A stretch of DNA of 64,000 nt from Sporolactobacillus vineae DSM 21990 = SL153 (GTDB lineage Bacteria; Bacillota; Bacilli; Bacillales; Sporolactobacillaceae). Every line of letters begins with the position of its first letter. Positions within the stretch are counted from its first letter, which is position 1. Under the pieces are notes generated by a model. That model did not search any database. It worked only from the letters and a program-made list of their open reading frames with translations, and was not told the DNA's origin. Location of the stretch: assembly GCF_000377985.1 (NCBI RefSeq), contig NZ_KB899044.1, positions 124,001-188,000 on the forward strand, written 5' to 3'. The position numbers were made by a program, and so were the translations under genes. This document shows, one piece after another, positions 31,357-64,000 of the stretch.

Positions 31357-31384
31357 CGCAATCATTTGAATGGAGGAGATTACA

Positions 31385-32311
31385 TTGAGCTGGCTTGTGA
31401 ACAGACAATCATCACAATCGCAACTGGCCGCACGTTTCCGGGAACTGATGAACGGGCCGGAGATTCTGAAAATTCCCGGTGTCCATGACGGCATGTCCGC
31501 ACTGATCGCTAAAAAAGTCGGTTTTCGCGCCCTGTACCTGTCCGGTGCAGCATATACAGCAAGCCGCGGTTTGCCGGATCTGGGACTGATTTACTCCAAT
31601 GAACTGGCAGTTAAAGCAGCGGAACTGATCCGGGCTGCGGATCTGCCGTTGCTGGCCGACATCGACACCGGCTACGGCGGCGTCATCAATGTCGCCCGGG
31701 CGGCTCGGGAAATGGCCGAGGCGGGTGTCGCAGCCGTCCAGATAGAGGATCAGCAGCTGCCGAAGAAGTGCGGTCATCTCAATGGAAAACGTCTCGTTTC
31801 TGCCGAAGACATGGCGCAGAAAATCAGCACGTTGAAGAAGATTGCACCGGAGCTTGTTGTCATTGCCCGAACCGATGCAAAGGCCGTCGAAGGACTGGAA
31901 AGCGCCTGCGCACGTGCCCGCAGCTATGTCGCGGCCGGTGCAGATGCTATTTTCCCGGAAGCGCTGACGACTGAGACGGACTTCAGGACCTTTCGCCGTG
32001 CCGTCGATGTCCCGCTTCTGGCCAACATGACCGAGTTCGGCAAGACGCCTTACTATACGGCTGCTCAATTCGCATCATTCGGTTTTCAGCTGGTCATTTA
32101 TCCGGTAACGTCCATGCGTGCTGCCGCAAAAGCTGTTGAACGCGTTTTTACAACCATCTTCGAAACAGGGACGCAGAAAGATGCTCTGAGTGCGCTGCAG
32201 ACCCGTGCCGAACTGTATGAAACGATTCAGTACAGTCAGTACGAGTCCCTTGATCGGGAGCTGGCGAAAACAATTCTTCCCGAAATCGGGAAAGAGGATC
32301 CGGAGAAATGA
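31385..32311 (+). CDS. prpB: Methylisocitrate lyase
   Basis: Cleaves 2-methylisocitrate to pyruvate and succinate. PEP-mutase/isocitrate-lyase superfamily: LYLSGAAYTASRGLPD, ADIDTGYGG metal site (about 91-99), and the KKCGHLNGK loop (from residue 127) with the catalytic Cys. An ATG at 31370 sits inside the SD; the TTG at 31385, 6 nt after GGAGGAG, is the likely start (308 residues). Same operon as prpD, 28 bp apart. Confidence 0.9.
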   Translation: MSWLVNRQSSQSQLAARFRELMNGPEILKIPGVHDGMSALIAKKVGFRALYLSGAAYTASRGLPDLGLIYSNELAVKAAELIRAADLPLLADIDTGYGGVINVARAAREMAEAGVAAVQIEDQQLPKKCGHLNGKRLVSAEDMAQKISTLKKIAPELVVIARTDAKAVEGLESACARARSYVAAGADAIFPEALTTETDFRTFRRAVDVPLLANMTEFGKTPYYTAAQFASFGFQLVIYPVTSMRAAAKAVERVFTTIFETGTQKDALSALQTRAELYETIQYSQYESLDRELAKTILPEIGKEDPEK

Positions 32312-54790: not shown

Positions 54791-55648
54791 GTGAGTGTAT
54801 TGAGCGATGATTTGTGCAGCGATTTGCGATTTCAGATTCAAACCGGTAAACCACTGGTGATTCCCGGCATTTTTGACGGCATCTCCGCAAAGTTGACCCA
54901 GAAAACAGGCTTTCCGGCAGCGCTCGTCTCAAGCGTTGGTGCAGAGGGAACATTGCTTGGCTCCGACAATTACGGACTTCTGAGCATGTCCGAACGCGCC
55001 CGTCATTTAAGGTATATTCGTCAGACGGTTGACCTTCCGCTGATTATTGATGCGGAATCCGGTTATGGAAATGCACTGAATACTTTTTACACGGCAAAAG
55101 AATTTGAGCGTTCCGGCGCCTCGGCATTGATCCTGAATGACCAGTCCGCCCCTTCTGTTTCTGAATTCTTTCAGAACTTGAAAGTGATCGAGACTCAGGA
55201 AATGATCGGAAAAATTCATGCGGCAAAAGACGCCTTGGAAAACCCGGAATCCTTCATCATTGCCCGGACAGACAGCCTGGCAGCTAAGGGAATCGATGAG
55301 GCATTCAGCCGGGCTCGGGCTTACCGCGACGCGGGAGCCGATTTAATCATCATCGGCGGATTAACGGATGACACATTCATAGCTCAGGCAGCGGCATTGT
55401 CCTCAGAATTTCCTGTCGGCATTGATAGGATCGAAGGACGAAATCATACTTTCTCCTCAGCACAGGATCTTTTTAAAAAAGGTTACGGCGTCGTTTTTTA
55501 TCCGGCAAGCACACTGTTTGCGGCTTCTCAGGCAGAAGAAGCGGCACTCAGGCAATTAAGCGGAAGCAGCAAGTCCGATAAATCTGACTATACTTTTTCC
55601 AGCCGGATAGCCGGACATCAGCCATTGAAAAAGGAGGTGCAGCCATGA
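54791..55648 (+). CDS. Isocitrate lyase / PEP mutase superfamily protein without the lyase Cys loop
   Basis: A TIM-barrel enzyme of 285 residues. It has the metal-binding DAESGYGN, FDGISAKLTQKTGFPA and IIARTDSLAAKG typical of the superfamily. The KKCGH loop of lyases is replaced by NDQSAPSVSEF, so C-C bond cleavage of the isocitrate-lyase kind is unlikely; PEP-mutase-like or phosphonate/oxaloacetate chemistry is possible. GTG start with AGGA 6 nt upstream; a TTG at 54800 is an alternative. Overlaps the next paralogue by 4 bp. Confidence 0.8.
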   Translation: MSVLSDDLCSDLRFQIQTGKPLVIPGIFDGISAKLTQKTGFPAALVSSVGAEGTLLGSDNYGLLSMSERARHLRYIRQTVDLPLIIDAESGYGNALNTFYTAKEFERSGASALILNDQSAPSVSEFFQNLKVIETQEMIGKIHAAKDALENPESFIIARTDSLAAKGIDEAFSRARAYRDAGADLIIIGGLTDDTFIAQAAALSSEFPVGIDRIEGRNHTFSSAQDLFKKGYGVVFYPASTLFAASQAEEAALRQLSGSSKSDKSDYTFSSRIAGHQPLKKEVQP

Positions 55649-56526
55649 AAGCGGATCGAATGCGCGCACAATTCAACCGTCTCGTTCATGAACCGCAGAT
55701 TATCAGCATGGTCGCCTGTCCGGACAGCCTGTCCGCAAAAATCGCCGAACGAACCGGCTTTAAGGCCATTTTCCAGGCGGGTTATACCACTTCAGCTTCC
55801 GAACTGGCGATGCCCGATCGGGGAATCGCGGATTTCGGCATCATGGTTAACCGGGCCAGGGAGATCGTCAACTGCGTGGATATCCCGGTCTTTGCCGATG
55901 CCGATACAGGTTACGGCAACTTGATGAATGTGGCCCGGACGGTACGCTGCTACGAATCGATCGGCGTTGCCGGACTTTTCCTGGAAGATCAGAAATGGCC
56001 GAAGCGCTGCGGCCATATGGACGGCAAAGCGGTTATCCCGATGGAGGAAATGGTTGAGAAGATTCGTACCGCCGCCCGTACCCGGAAACACCGTGATTTT
56101 CTGATCATGTCCCGTACAGATGCCCGTGCGGTTTACGACCTGGACGAAGCCATCCGGCGGAGCCGGGCCTATCACCAGGCGGGCGCCGACATGGTCTTCA
56201 TTGAAGCGCCGCAAAATAAAGAGGAGCTCAAAAAAATTTCAGCGGCATTTCCTGATGTTCCGCTGATGGCGAATATGATTGAACACGGCAAAACACCGCT
56301 GATGACAGCCGATGAGCTGCAGGAACTGGGTTTCCGGATCATGGTTCATCCCACAGCATTGGCTTACGCACAAACCTTCGCCGAGCAAGAATTGCTCAAG
56401 GAACTCTATACCCGTAAAACCACTGCAGGCTTTATGGACAGACTCGTGCCCTTTGATCAGTTTAATCGTTTTATCGGACTGGATGAAGTGAACCAATTGG
56501 AAGAGAAATATACATCTGCAGAGTAA
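55645..56526 (+). CDS. Methylisocitrate lyase-like / oxaloacetate decarboxylase-like enzyme
   Basis: A second PEP-mutase/isocitrate-lyase family member, 293 residues. FADADTGYGN (metal site) and KRCGHMDGK with the catalytic Cys (KRCGH 120-124) are intact, as are IMSRTDARAVYDLDEAI and FIEAPQNKEEL. A lyase acting on a 2-methyl- or 2,3-dimethyl-substituted malate or isocitrate is plausible. SD AAAGGAGG. Diverged from the PrpB at 31.4 kb, so probably a different substrate. Confidence 0.82.
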   Translation: MKADRMRAQFNRLVHEPQIISMVACPDSLSAKIAERTGFKAIFQAGYTTSASELAMPDRGIADFGIMVNRAREIVNCVDIPVFADADTGYGNLMNVARTVRCYESIGVAGLFLEDQKWPKRCGHMDGKAVIPMEEMVEKIRTAARTRKHRDFLIMSRTDARAVYDLDEAIRRSRAYHQAGADMVFIEAPQNKEELKKISAAFPDVPLMANMIEHGKTPLMTADELQELGFRIMVHPTALAYAQTFAEQELLKELYTRKTTAGFMDRLVPFDQFNRFIGLDEVNQLEEKYTSAE

Positions 56527-59396: not shown

Positions 59397-60677
59397 CTAT
59401 TTTTTCAGTTCTGCAATCCATCCCACCGACAAAGCACTTACAACCCCCGAGAAGAGGACATACAGGGTCAGCAAGAGCGGTGATCCGTCGCCTGCCTGCA
59501 GCAGTGATGTAGCAATAATCGGGGTAATCCCGCTGGCAAAGATGCCAGAGGATTGATAGACGAAGGATACTCCTGTATAGCGAACTTCCGCATCAAACAA
59601 TTCGGCAAACAGAGCGGCTTCCGGCCCGTAGACAATCGCATATAAGATGCCAAACGGAATAATGATCGCCAGCCAGATCAGCCAGGTGTTTCCTGATGAG
59701 TGGCCCATCATCCAGAAAGCCGGCATCGCTGATATTCCTGTAATTAAACTTCCCCAAAAATATACTTTCGTTCTGCCGATTCGGTCGGACCAATAGCCGA
59801 ACAGAGGAATAAAGAAACACATGACGAATGCGGCAACAGAAACACCGAGCGTCGCCATCGAATTGCTGATGTGAATATGATTCGTCAGGTAATTTATCGA
59901 GAAGACGCCCATGACATTGAAAAACACACCATCGATGTACCGGGTGCCCATGCCTGCGATGATTTTCCGTGTATTGCCCTTCCACATCTTTTTAAAAGGA
60001 ATGCGAGTTTCTTTATTCGTATCTTTCACTTTCTGGAACTCCGGGGTTTCTTTGACCGCAATTCTCATCCAGAGCCCGGTAATGAGCAGGACAATACTCA
60101 GACCAAAGGCGACCCGCCAGCCCCAGGCAAGGAACTGGGTATCGGACAGAAGTGCGGTAAGCAGCCCGATAACACCGGATGCGAGCAAAAGGCCAAAGGA
60201 CAGACCGATCTGAGGGAAACTGGCATAGTAACCACGCTTGTTCTTCGGGGCATACTCATAAGTCATCAGGATGGCACCGCCCCATTCCCCGCCAAGCCCA
60301 ATTCCCTGAACAACACGAAGCAGCAGTAAAATGATCGGTGCCCAGATGCCGATTTGATCATAGGTAGGCAAAATAGCGATCAGGCAGGTGCTTCCGCCCA
60401 TAATCATGACCGTTAAAATCAGCATCCGCTTACGCCCAAGTTTATCACCGAAATGTCCGAAGATGACGCCACCTACCGGTCGGGCGAAAAATCCGACGGC
60501 AAATGTGACATAAGCGAGCAAGGTCGACAAAAAAGGATCATTGCTCGGGAAATACAGCTGGTTTAACACCATACCGGCCACGACACCATACAGGAAGAAA
60601 TCATACCATTCAATCGTCGCGCCGATAATACTTGAAGAAACGACAGGTAACAGCTTGCTTTTCGTTTTCTTTTCCAC
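59397..60677 (-). CDS. MFS transporter, metabolite:H+ symporter (MHS) family
   Basis: A 426-residue, twelve-helix carrier. IIGATIEWYDFFLYG in helix 1, GHFGDKLGRKRMLILT (motif A), RVVQGIGLGGEWGGA and PKNKRGYYASFPQIG are hallmarks of the MHS group (ShiA, ProP, KgtP and citrate carriers). The ligand is not determined. GTG start 7 nt after AAGGAGG. A minus-strand promoter lies at 60736-60765. Confidence 0.9.
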   Translation of the reverse strand: MEKKTKSKLLPVVSSSIIGATIEWYDFFLYGVVAGMVLNQLYFPSNDPFLSTLLAYVTFAVGFFARPVGGVIFGHFGDKLGRKRMLILTVMIMGGSTCLIAILPTYDQIGIWAPIILLLLRVVQGIGLGGEWGGAILMTYEYAPKNKRGYYASFPQIGLSFGLLLASGVIGLLTALLSDTQFLAWGWRVAFGLSIVLLITGLWMRIAVKETPEFQKVKDTNKETRIPFKKMWKGNTRKIIAGMGTRYIDGVFFNVMGVFSINYLTNHIHISNSMATLGVSVAAFVMCFFIPLFGYWSDRIGRTKVYFWGSLITGISAMPAFWMMGHSSGNTWLIWLAIIIPFGILYAIVYGPEAALFAELFDAEVRYTGVSFVYQSSGIFASGITPIIATSLLQAGDGSPLLLTLYVLFSGVVSALSVGWIAELKK

Positions 60678-61252
60678 AAAAGACCTCCTTTAATTGTTTC
60701 CCCGGCGGCAAAGCGCCGGAAGATCTGAAAGTGAAATAGTAGCATGGCCCATGAAAAAAAGTCAAATAGTATGCTGTTATGATGAAAATAATTTTTATGG
60801 AGTGATAGAGGTGTCCAGTATATGTAAGATTGCAGGACATCTCAGAAGTCCGTGCAGAGACTGGCTGAGATTAATCAAGATTACCATAGGTTCATACAAC
60901 ACCTGATTCAACGTGCTACACGTGATTATTCCATGAAATCGACAACTGAAATAAGAAGGCTGGACTGCAATCCTGAGAACAACGAACCAAATCGATCGAT
61001 CAACTGCTTGATAGCATCGTCTGCTGAATCCAGATCTTTGCCGTCAATCTTTTGGGAGATCTGTCACGGGTCTTGCGTTCCGCCAAGGTTAGGAGCACAT
61101 CATCTTCACTTCTATAAAATAAGATAATTCCCCATCTAAGCTAAATTCAGGTGGGGATCATTATTTGATGCGTACGGTTAAGTAAGATTCCGGTAATGGA
61201 CATCAACAGGAAAATCAGTAAACCGTTCATACCTGCCATATAATGAATCGAG
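60678..61252. promoter_or_regulatory. Gene-free region with the MHS carrier promoter and a distal terminator
   Basis: Minus-strand promoter TTGACT (60760-60765), 18 nt, TACTAT (60736-60741) for the MHS carrier. Open frames around 60.7-61.1 kb have no SD, odd composition and no family resemblance, so I do not call them. A long imperfect hairpin at 61124-61166 (CCCCA/TGGGG core) followed by TTATTTT on the minus strand probably terminates the M20 gene. Confidence 0.5.
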
Positions 61253-62599
61253 CTAATTCCGGGCAAGATGTTCAAAAATCGCCGTCAAAAAGCGGATCCC
61301 CTGATGATAATTATCCAGGTGTACGTTTTCATTCGGTGAATGAGCGCCCGAACCCGGATCACCGATTCCGAAAGACATCAGCGGTGCATGGAGATAGTGA
61401 TTAAAGAGATACATCGGTCCGGTTCCTGAACTTGTCGGCAGCAGCTGCAAATGGTCTTCGCCGCCATAAACCTTCGCGGCAACGTCCAGTATGCTCCTGA
61501 CAATCGGTGCGTCGAGGTCGGAACGATAACTCTTTTCCCCCATCAGATACTCGACTTTCACATCACTGAACCCTCGTTTATTCAAATACTTCTGCACTTT
61601 CTTATAAATATCGACCGGATCCTGATGCGGTACCAGACGAGCATCAATCTTCGCCCGTGCCGTATGCGGCAGCACCGTCTTGACACTTTCACCCTCATAG
61701 CCGCTTGTCAAACCGGCAATATTGATGGTTGGTTCAAAAGCATAGGCTTCCTTGATATTGTCAAAAAGAAATGGAAGCTGAAGATCATGGAGTTTCTTAA
61801 CCGATTCTTTATCAAGATACATCTTGTCGATGAGCGCCCTGGCTCGCGGGGAAGGTTCTTCCACATCATCGTAGAAACCGTCAACGAGAATTCTGCCGCT
61901 ATTTACATCGCGCAGCGTAGCCAGTGCCTGTGCCAGGCGCCATCCCGGGCCTTCGATATAAGCAGCTGATGAGGAGTGAATATCATCCTTGCCGGTTCGG
62001 GTGACCAGATCAAAACAGCTGATCCCCTTATTGCCGCCGGTAATTTCCAGTTTGCCCTGCGAGGTCTTTGAACCGCCTTCCCAGACCACCAGATCAGTCT
62101 GAAATAGATCAGCGTATTTCTTCAGATAGTCTTCCAGATTCTGGCTGGCGATTTCTTCCGCACCTTCAACAAAAAACTTGACCTGAAAGGGAAAATCACC
62201 GTGCTCCTGCCTGTAGATGTTCAGGGCAGTAAGCCGGGCAATTAGTTCACCCTTGCAGTCAGCTACTCCGCGGCCGACAAGCTTTCCGTCCTTTTCGGTC
62301 AGCGTAAACGGTTCGGAGTGCCATTCTTCCAGAGGTTCCGGGGGCTGCACATCATAGTGGTTATAAAATAATACAGTCGTCGCCCTTTTCTGCGGGTCTT
62401 CCGGCTGAAAATCTGCATACACTAGCGGGTATTTATAATCATGGAACACTCTTGCCTGCCCACCTGCCTGAGTAAATAATTTCCGCAAGAATTCCGCTGT
62501 TTCGGGAATAGCTTTGTTCTGGGCAGAAACTGAAGGCAGCTTTATGTAGTCGGCTAGATGTTTTTTATATTGCGTAACAATGTCATCACTCGCACTCAC
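61253..62599 (-). CDS. M20-family dipeptidase
   Basis: Zinc peptidase of about 450 residues in the carnosinase/CNDP2-like branch. Metal ligands and catalytic residues: NHYDVQPP (His84, Asp86 counting from the upstream ATG), GVADCKGE (Asp117), VEGAEEIAS (catalytic Glu), and a late SFGIGDPGSGAHSPNE. The ATG at 62608 abuts the SD (AGAGG); the GTG at 62599, 9 nt away, is better spaced. The gene is alone behind a SAM-I riboswitch, so it belongs to the methionine/sulfur regulon and may release Met or Cys from dipeptides. Confidence 0.9.
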   Translation of the reverse strand: MSASDDIVTQYKKHLADYIKLPSVSAQNKAIPETAEFLRKLFTQAGGQARVFHDYKYPLVYADFQPEDPQKRATTVLFYNHYDVQPPEPLEEWHSEPFTLTEKDGKLVGRGVADCKGELIARLTALNIYRQEHGDFPFQVKFFVEGAEEIASQNLEDYLKKYADLFQTDLVVWEGGSKTSQGKLEITGGNKGISCFDLVTRTGKDDIHSSSAAYIEGPGWRLAQALATLRDVNSGRILVDGFYDDVEEPSPRARALIDKMYLDKESVKKLHDLQLPFLFDNIKEAYAFEPTINIAGLTSGYEGESVKTVLPHTARAKIDARLVPHQDPVDIYKKVQKYLNKRGFSDVKVEYLMGEKSYRSDLDAPIVRSILDVAAKVYGGEDHLQLLPTSSGTGPMYLFNHYLHAPLMSFGIGDPGSGAHSPNENVHLDNYHQGIRFLTAIFEHLARN

Positions 62600-62650
62600 T
62601 TTTGTCATCCTCTTTTATTCAAATTAGTCATTTAAAATGGTCATAAAGAA

Positions 62651-62806
62651 ATGCCGTTTTCTGTGATAAGAAAACGGCATGAGTTAATGATTCATACGCT
62701 GTCTTCTCATCTTTGCAGAATATATTCTGCTGGAATTGACACCATGCAACTATGCTGGTTGTCGGGCTTCATCGGGCCAGTCCCTCCGCCGCTCTGGATA
62801 AGAATC
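62651..62806 (-). promoter_or_regulatory. SAM-I (S-box) riboswitch and terminator controlling the M20 dipeptidase
   Basis: Read on the minus strand from 62806: TTCTTATCCAGAG, then GGCGGAGGGACTGGCCCGA, then TGAAGCCCGACAACC, GGTGTCAATTCC, AGCAG...CTGC, and AGATGAGAA closing P1. Every element of the S-box consensus is present. The expression platform is an 11-bp terminator (62651-62661 / 62670-62680) followed by TTCTTT, 42 nt before the gene. SAM binding should switch the gene off. Confidence 0.95.
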
Positions 62807-62830
62807 GCTTGTGTTTACTTATTAACCATT

Positions 62831-62859
62831 ATATTAGATATATTAGCTGGAGTCGTCAA
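62831..62859 (-). promoter_or_regulatory. Promoter of the SAM-riboswitch transcript
   Basis: On the minus strand TTGACG (62854-62859), 17 nt, TAATAT (62831-62836). It starts transcription shortly before the aptamer. Confidence 0.65.
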
Positions 62860-62907
62860 TATAAAGCTACATTATTTTGATGTGCTTTATTATTGATTCG
62901 ATTCTTT

Positions 62908-62995: not shown

Positions 62996-63853
62996 TCACT
63001 CATTCAAAAAGAGTAAATGATTGGTCCACTTTCGGCGGAAATAATTCTGCATCTTCGCCTCATCGTCTAAATTAAGAATAACAAAATCTAATCGAACATC
63101 CTTAAGCTTCCTGAATGTCTCAAATTCGCTCTTATTAATGATTCCTTTAAACAGGTAATGCTCAATGCCATCAAAGTCTGGTTTCCCAAATTTAATTAAC
63201 GCATGAATCATCCTTTGATTTGAACGATGCGTGAACCGATAACGCAGGGGCTTTCGAAGAAGGGATAATGAGCCATATTTATAACTGACTTTCTTTTTCG
63301 CAGCTAATTGACTGGATCTGGCCAATTCATCCTTCAGCTTTTCATACTCAGCGTTTACGGCTTTTAATTGACTGCGATTTCGGCTGATTCGTATCGCCGC
63401 ATCGTTCAGCGTCAAATTCACTTCAGGTATTTGCTCACTCTTTATCAGTTTCTGCCCCGCTCGATTAAAAGAAGGCTTAACATAATATTCCGGAGTTAAG
63501 TGGTACGGTTCAAATAAGTCCAGCAGTTTCTGGTCTTTATTCAAATTGCGACTGGTCAGTATCGTCAGTCTCTGGAGTAATCCAAGATTATACAGATATT
63601 CATTGAGTCCAGTGTAATCATATTGATAAATTTTTTTAGGAATGAACTTCGCCACCAGATGACTGCCAATCTCATACCTTCTGGATTCACCACTGCTGAG
63701 ACAGCCGCGCACACAGTCTCGAAGTGCCTTCCCTTCCTTTTCAAGTTCTTTTAGCCGTTTATACGAACCGGATGCGACAAAGGCTTCCATTAATTGTTCC
63801 GCGTCCCCTCTGTTTGAAGAGAGGGTTTTACTTTTTGAACGAGAACAGGACAT
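62996..63853 (-). CDS. Hypothetical protein of about 285 residues
   Basis: I do not recognise a family. The protein is basic and hydrophilic with a helical centre (AAIRISRNRSQLKAVNAEYEKLKDELARSSQLAAKKK) and no membrane segment or signal. It ends MQNYFRRKWTNHLLFLNE. The frame is open upstream to beyond 63991, but the best start is the ATG at 63853 after AAAGGGGG. Base composition is AT-richer than the central part of the window. It follows a UvrC-like fragment by 31 bp on the same strand, suggesting one transcript. An accessory or mobile origin is inferred. Confidence 0.5.
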   Translation of the reverse strand: MSCSRSKSKTLSSNRGDAEQLMEAFVASGSYKRLKELEKEGKALRDCVRGCLSSGESRRYEIGSHLVAKFIPKKIYQYDYTGLNEYLYNLGLLQRLTILTSRNLNKDQKLLDLFEPYHLTPEYYVKPSFNRAGQKLIKSEQIPEVNLTLNDAAIRISRNRSQLKAVNAEYEKLKDELARSSQLAAKKKVSYKYGSLSLLRKPLRYRFTHRSNQRMIHALIKFGKPDFDGIEHYLFKGIINKSEFETFRKLKDVRLDFVILNLDDEAKMQNYFRRKWTNHLLFLNE

Positions 63854-63884
63854 AACCCAGATGCCCCCTTTGAACAGCAAGTAA

Positions 63885-64000
63885 TCAGTTCTTAATGCCC
63901 GTTGCTTCCAGTTTCGATAACGACAGCTTATTTTGCAACGCGATGCGTGCATTCTGACAGGCCATCTGTACAAGGTTCTTTTTGGTGCCACGTTTGGGAT
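63885..64000 (-). pseudogene. 3' end of a UvrC-like reading frame (partial, probably truncated)
   Basis: A minus-strand frame enters from beyond the right edge and stops with TGA at 63885. Its last 37 codons read PKRGTKKNLVQMA, then NARIALQNKL and end LEATGIKN. The first part resembles the central UvrC stretch (PKxGxKKxLVxMAxxNARxAL). In UvrC that stretch lies mid-protein and is followed by the C-terminal RNase H-like and helix-hairpin-helix domains, which are missing here. It is either a truncated paralogue, a disrupted gene or a short relative. Confidence 0.5.

Follow-up and report, generated by a model that had tools for sequence, protein, structure and literature searches.

A stretch of 64,000 nucleotides of Sporolactobacillus vineae DSM 21990 = SL153 (contig NZ_KB899044.1, positions 124,001 to 188,000 of the forward strand; hereafter the window) harbours near its end an S-adenosylmethionine (SAM) riboswitch of the SAM-I, or S-box, class in front of a gene encoding an M20 metallopeptidase. 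Judged from the sequence, it is probable that this transcription-terminating riboswitch controls a peptidase of the HmrB kind, which would release methionine from short peptides. The computation showed the aptamer itself, the mutually exclusive helices of its leader, an S-box at the one other genome of the family that bears an orthologue, and the link between the peptidase's branch and methionine genes. The features of the region are as follows:

62831..62859, minus strand: promoter-like TTGACG-17-TAATAT, a consensus match alone
62704..62804, minus strand: SAM-I (S-box) aptamer (RF00162, 85.2 bits, E 6.1e-20)
62700..62715, minus strand: predicted antiterminator strand, made of the 3' side of P1 and the following bases, in duplex with 62680-62665
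62651..62680, minus strand: predicted intrinsic terminator stem-loop of 12 pairs with a U-rich tail to about 62641 (fold of -15.9 kcal/mol)
62609..62615, minus strand: likely Shine-Dalgarno sequence AAAGAGG, read from the sequence
61253..62599, minus strand: HmrB-like M20 peptidase gene, an open reading frame (ORF) with its likely GTG start at 62599; a longer ORF begins at the ATG at 62608
61127..61159, minus strand: candidate terminator behind the coding region, GATCCCCACCT ... AGATGGGGAAT followed by a T-rich run, recognized by eye

The cmscan match on the minus strand of the window covers positions 1-108 of the 108 positions of the RF00162 model, with a score far above the gathering score of 44.4 bits, and a chance match is ruled out by the E value. 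The aptamer ahead of the M20 gene, noticed in a preliminary description of this DNA, is thereby confirmed. Service to another gene was ruled out as well, the peptidase gene being the first substantial one downstream on the same strand. In minimum-energy folds of the growing leader, the aptamer is formed at 101-130 nucleotides, the antiterminator, in which the 3' side of P1 is paired with the 5' arm of the terminator, at 140-150 nucleotides, and the aptamer together with the terminator from 160 nucleotides onwards. The antiterminator pairing amounts to -18.6 kcal/mol; when the letters of the terminator arm were shuffled 2000 times, no shuffle reached so low a value. The expression platform is thus predicted to be mutually exclusive with P1, and the same series of fold states is predicted for the leader of the orthologue in S. 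shoreae. Sites that fit the terminator and the promoter described earlier are present, and the former is backed by folding; the consensus scan, however, found 3 promoter-like sites in the region against 3.7 expected by chance and 2 terminator-like sites against 2.0, so that the weight of both elements lies in position and folding rather than in the scan. As modelled, the layout is the ordinary one for a switch that shuts its gene off at high SAM.

The response to SAM, the peptide substrate and the release of methionine are what we infer from these data. At high SAM the aptamer would hold P1, the terminator would form and the peptidase gene would be off. Once supplies of methionine and SAM run low, the 3' side of P1 would pair with the 5' arm of the terminator, the polymerase would read through and the peptidase would be made; this step leans on the known mechanism of the S-box class and on the predicted folds. 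The enzyme would then act on short peptides brought into the cell and free methionine from them, most likely from dipeptides or as the C-terminal residue, a step suggested by the genomic linkage of its branch, and the methionine released would go to protein synthesis and to SAM. Import of the peptides by Opp-type systems is plausible, the genome encoding four OppA-like proteins.

The start of the gene is more likely the GTG at 62599, as proposed earlier, than the ATG at 62608, since AGAGG lies 9 nucleotides ahead of the former and the resulting N-terminus equals in length that of the listed S. shoreae orthologue. Some 575 bases separate it from the next substantial ORF downstream on the same strand, which begins at 60677; the gene thus stands alone, and the possible terminator behind it was not listed by the consensus scan, whose loop limit is 8. 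The product scores above the gathering thresholds of both M20 domains, PF01546 (Peptidase_M20; 117.1 bits versus 24.6, E 1.3e-33) and PF07687 (M20_dimer; 35.6 bits versus 21), which places it among the M20 metallopeptidases, and it exceeds the cut-off of NCBIfam NF005034 (375.7 versus 369 bits). Eight residues, which we take to be metal ligands and catalytic residues, are invariant across 9 aligned proteins. The closest solved structures are 2pok, presumably the pneumococcal HmrB protein (360 bits), and the carboxypeptidase Sso-CP2 (4mmo; 286 bits), followed by CNDP1 (155 bits) and CNDP2 (137 bits), while the Cys-Gly peptidase DUG1 (104 bits) ranks sixth. Glu177 of the window protein is aligned with Asp in CNDP1 and CNDP2, and 2pok and Sso-CP2 also carry Glu. 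Although all of these are M20-type relatives by sequence, the protein does not belong with the CNDP/DUG1 dipeptidases by score, nor with CNDP1 and CNDP2 by this residue, and its former designation as CNDP-like was imprecise.

An orthologue was detected in two of the 26 genomes of the family, namely in S. vineae itself and in S. shoreae (G016), where the protein is 85% identical; the next match is at 44%. Conservation across the genus was therefore rejected, even though 21 of the 26 genomes contain an M20 relative of one sort or another (E up to 1e-60). The S. shoreae orthologue (L020/L059) is likewise preceded by an S-box (79.1 bits), so that the sole other holder of the gene shares the device. 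There the order is S-box, M20 gene, S9-family peptidase gene after a gap of 150 bases, and genes for a family-5 solute-binding protein, two permeases and two ATPases, the last five being of the Opp type according to Pfam. The single-gene unit described earlier is true of S. vineae; in S. shoreae the M20 gene is followed by that of a second peptidase and by the Opp-type genes. In the gap between the M20 and S9 genes, which by eye contains a GC-rich palindrome with no run of T, the consensus scan listed neither a terminator nor a promoter candidate, but it gave two weak promoter-like sites ahead of the binding-protein gene; with the palindrome and these sites, one transcript across all the genes is a candidate only. 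S-boxes were absent ahead of other M20 relatives at all 38 other loci of one locus set. In a second set of 80 loci one S-box was found besides that of S. shoreae, at L132, and it was rejected as an M20 regulator, for the M20 gene there, which is not an orthologue, lies 1.8 kb upstream of the S-box, and what the S-box precedes is a different ATP-binding cassette (ABC) ATPase gene. None was seen at 15 loci of S9 peptidases in the family, a set in which the S. shoreae locus stops short of its S-box.

The methionine connection of the enzyme comes from its relatives in other bacteria, which were taken from the best 80 of at least 570 matches; "nearest" below refers to the matches listed. Outside the genus the seven closest loci belong to Lactobacillaceae (L060-L066; 53-61% identity), and at each of them methionine transporter genes stand beside the peptidase gene (metQ, metN and metI in four, metN and metI in two, metQ in one). 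Upstream of all seven lie T-boxes, eight in total (E values from 6.9e-22 to 2.5e-12, one of the eight above the gathering score), whose specifier is the methionine codon AUG in every case according to the RF00230 alignment. A T-box directly precedes the peptidase gene in L063 and L064, and L064 has another in front of metN. These loci share with the window a methionine-specific control, yet a T-box senses uncharged tRNA (tRNA-Met by its specifier) and not SAM, and their transporter genes adjoin the peptidase gene. Three of these seven loci (L063 6197-7318, L064 from 6698, L066 4346-5488) continue with a further M20 gene, which is of the ArgE/DapE deacylase type.

Three plasmid records with a relative were found and one was examined. 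It is the 16 kb plasmid p2_WK39 of Companilactobacillus allii, on which metQ, a peptidase gene (product 48% identical), an ATPase gene and a methionine permease gene form an operon (L159 4798-9096) behind a ninth T-box; its specifier, too, is AUG, which makes nine of nine at loci of the branch. Other T-boxes near relatives outside the branch were found at L023, on the opposite strand, and twice at L069, where by reading neither specifier is AUG (search range: L020-L039, L059-L078, L159, L118, L120, L133, L134, L069 and the last 4 kb of the window).

Four streptococcal loci among the best 80 of the relatives have the order metQ-peptidase-metN-metI throughout, with peptidases 41-42% identical to the window protein. 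The CmhR palindrome TATAGTTTNAAACTATA occurs once upstream of metQ in each, with 0, 0, 1 and 1 mismatches (chance mean of at most 0.01). In total 120 loci were examined, with flanks of up to 1.5 kb for L018 and L020-L058 and of up to 3 kb for L059-L138. Strong metQ, metN or metI neighbours were present at 11 of them, three represent the window (L018) and S. shoreae taken twice (L020, L059), and at the 106 others, which include the same genome taken twice several times (seven identical pairs in the 118-row set), neither metQ nor metI was seen in the flanks. At 12 of the 106 the MetN query gave matches of 27-40% identity, which were regarded as other ABC ATPases and left out of the count.

The 14 linked peptidases (two behind S-boxes, eight of Lactobacillaceae and four of Streptococcus) form one branch with support of 100/100 in a 70-row tree, from which 49 of 119 rows had been dropped (12 for being long or distant, 37 by manual thinning). 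With the plasmid row set aside, 13 of them fall on one branch with an SH-like approximate likelihood ratio test (SH-aLRT) support of 98 in a 118-row tree; this tree omits the duplicates L018 and L020 and also L033, which has a stop within its matched part or is too short. Other listed relatives from Lactobacillaceae, e.g. Levilactobacillus and Liquorilactobacillus, lie outside the branch. The window protein is therefore HmrB-type by its grouping with met-locus peptidases and not by adjoining metQ, metN or metI. In class-wide samples relatives were present in one of 398 genomes at E 1e-150 and, all branches taken together, in 60 of 398 at 1e-115.

The two Sporolactobacillus proteins may be nested inside those of Lactobacillaceae (support 85/63 in the 70-row tree). 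The gene was probably shared with Lactobacillaceae by horizontal transfer, in either direction, which would fit the orthologue's presence in two of 26 family genomes, the position of Lactobacillaceae as nearest among the matches listed, and the plasmid operon, which is a possible vehicle. Alternatively, the gene may have been lost in other Sporolactobacillus.

The link of this peptidase family to methionine is already known in print for streptococci (hmrB/atmC/pdsM). In one report, Sp_0150 is assigned to an M20-type peptidase family with similar genes in the methionine transporter loci of S. mutans (atmC) and S. agalactiae (pdsM); its function is called unknown there, and a degradation of extracellular peptides by the enzyme, to feed MetQNP, is considered as a possibility (PMC3551916). 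The S. suis gene is named dapE in another, which suggests a release of methionine residues from degraded polypeptides (PMC12063423), and S. pneumoniae spd-0152 is given as 2.9-fold up without added methionine in a third (PMC5359408). Four other streptococcal met-locus peptidases share the branch of the window protein, and that of S. porci matches 2pok, the closest solved structure of the window protein, at 653 bits; the pneumococcal arrangement differs, however, in that metQ-hmrB-metNP is under the protein regulator CmhR, whereas the gene studied here stands alone under an S-box. Six methionine T-boxes with ATG specifiers are described for L. paracasei in PMC6004538, and the targets of SAM-I riboswitches are placed in methionine metabolism in PMC3766115. 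In the literature searched, with subscription papers and supplements outside it, no paper was found on an S-box or SAM riboswitch with a dipeptidase or M20 peptidase, nor on T-box, methionine and dipeptidase in Lactobacillus; S-box control of this peptidase family was thus not met within that scope. Judged by title, the papers found on Sporolactobacillus and riboswitches bore no relation to it.

Several observations weigh against methionine release from peptides under S-box control. The link between S-box and peptidase rests on two species, and in the window no gene for a peptide or methionine transporter adjoins the peptidase gene. The S9 peptidase of S. shoreae is unmatched in the genome of S. 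vineae, and the best of the OppA-like proteins of the latter is 39% identical to that of S. shoreae. Eight of the nine T-boxes stay below the Rfam gathering cut-off (66.6-92.5 bits versus 93), though with E values of at most 2.5e-12. Finally, the position of Glu177 is presumably that of a metal ligand, where dipeptidases have Asp and both carboxypeptidases and deacylases have Glu, so that Glu here suggests the chemistry of one of the latter two and not that of a classic dipeptidase. The same residue would suit a deacylase freeing methionine from N-acyl-methionine, such as N-acetyl- or N-formyl-methionine, rather than from peptides, as would the ArgE/DapE-type neighbour in L063, L064 and L066. 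Such an activity is nevertheless considered quite unlikely, for, of the two closest solved relatives, the specifically named one is a carboxypeptidase, and in S. shoreae the gene is accompanied by those of an S9 peptidase and an Opp-type importer.

A broad exopeptidase, whose methionine control is incidental or for which methionine shortage is the cue to general peptide use, is unlikely. Non-orthologous M20 relatives of 40-44% identity occur in 10 of the 15 genomes of the genus, and in one of these genomes (G015) a non-orthologous M20 gene lies beside OppA/B/C- and S9-like genes with no S-box in L021 or L166, which span most of the locus. This setting supports peptide digestion in general, but it supports a broad exopeptidase too. 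What speaks against the latter is that methionine devices of three different kinds are found along a single branch, together with the absence of metQ and metI from the flanks of the 106 other loci. The preliminary description had also left room for cysteine, and salvage of Cys-Gly from glutathione, with the S-box serving general sulphur supply, would agree with the S-boxes ahead of sulphur assimilation genes in the same genome and with DUG1 as a distant relative. It seems very improbable, given that all nine T-box specifiers at loci of the branch call for methionine and that the operon partners are methionine transporter genes. The earlier interpretation is therefore partly supported: the idea of methionine from peptides gains strong independent support from three bacterial groups, while the cysteine half is unsupported. 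The riboswitch is ordinary and its target is informative.

S-boxes usually precede genes of methionine and cysteine synthesis or transport. The one described here resembles its class in the full-length aptamer, in the arrangement of P1, antiterminator and terminator and in its place ahead of a single unit, and differs in having a peptidase as its target. The genome contains 17 S-boxes, as does that of S. shoreae. With the target taken as the first large downstream ORF by its best NCBIfam match, several of these matches being under the curated cut-off, 12 of the 17 precede a sulphur or methionine family: metE, a MetN-type ATPase, metQ (then metN), TsuA/YeeE, cystathionine beta-lyase, metK, homocysteine methyltransferase/MTHFR, OAH sulfhydrylase/homocysteine synthase, a sulfate-binding protein, a transsulfuration-family pyridoxal phosphate enzyme, a nitrite/sulfite reductase-type protein and a YeiH-family protein. 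The remaining five comprise that of the peptidase, three at one LysR-like locus and one beside an IS110 transposase. The peptidase S-box is 89% identical to that ahead of the S. shoreae orthologue and, with 88-89%, as close to four S-boxes of its own genome, so identity does not tell its origin within the genome.

The three S-boxes of the LysR-like locus lie within about 830 bases (L197 2296-3130; C4:232795-233629 of the genome; S. shoreae counterpart L198 4908-5739) around an ORF of about 90 residues that by eye has the DNA-binding part only, flanked by a csrA-looking gene and the gene of a 113-residue protein without NCBIfam match. The small ORF is matched in 10 of the 15 genomes of the genus, and among 14 such loci three S-boxes are present in four (G000, G016, G014, G011), one or two in six and none in four. 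From the sequence, a SAM-controlled regulator consisting of a helix-turn-helix only, with tandem S-boxes, could be new. The S-box without a clear target (L012 1501-2659, end of C7) is followed about 200 bases downstream by an opposite-strand IS110-family transposase at the contig end. Elsewhere in the window, 62996-63991 on the minus strand encodes a 331-residue protein without Pfam or NCBIfam match, and 31370-32308, 54791-55645 and 55645-56523 have by eye the look of the isocitrate lyase/phosphoenolpyruvate mutase family, the last two being adjacent and followed by an MFS transporter-like gene.

The substrates of peptidases can seldom be deduced from sequence. Three unrelated methionine-responsive devices on one branch of enzymes yield a specific and cheaply testable substrate prediction for the Sp_0150/atmC/pdsM family. 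They also show one gene family that retains its physiological slot although the controlling RNA or protein differs from host to host. It is conceivable, though tentative, that the peptidase forms the centre of a mobile module for gaining methionine from peptides, which swaps its control device with the host: a methionine T-box in lactobacilli, where it is also seen on a plasmid, CmhR in streptococci and a SAM-I riboswitch in Sporolactobacillus, with the S-box of S. shoreae leading two peptidases and a complete Opp-type importer. If so, SAM-controlled import and digestion of peptides would give the S-box regulon a third arm, next to synthesis and the uptake of methionine.
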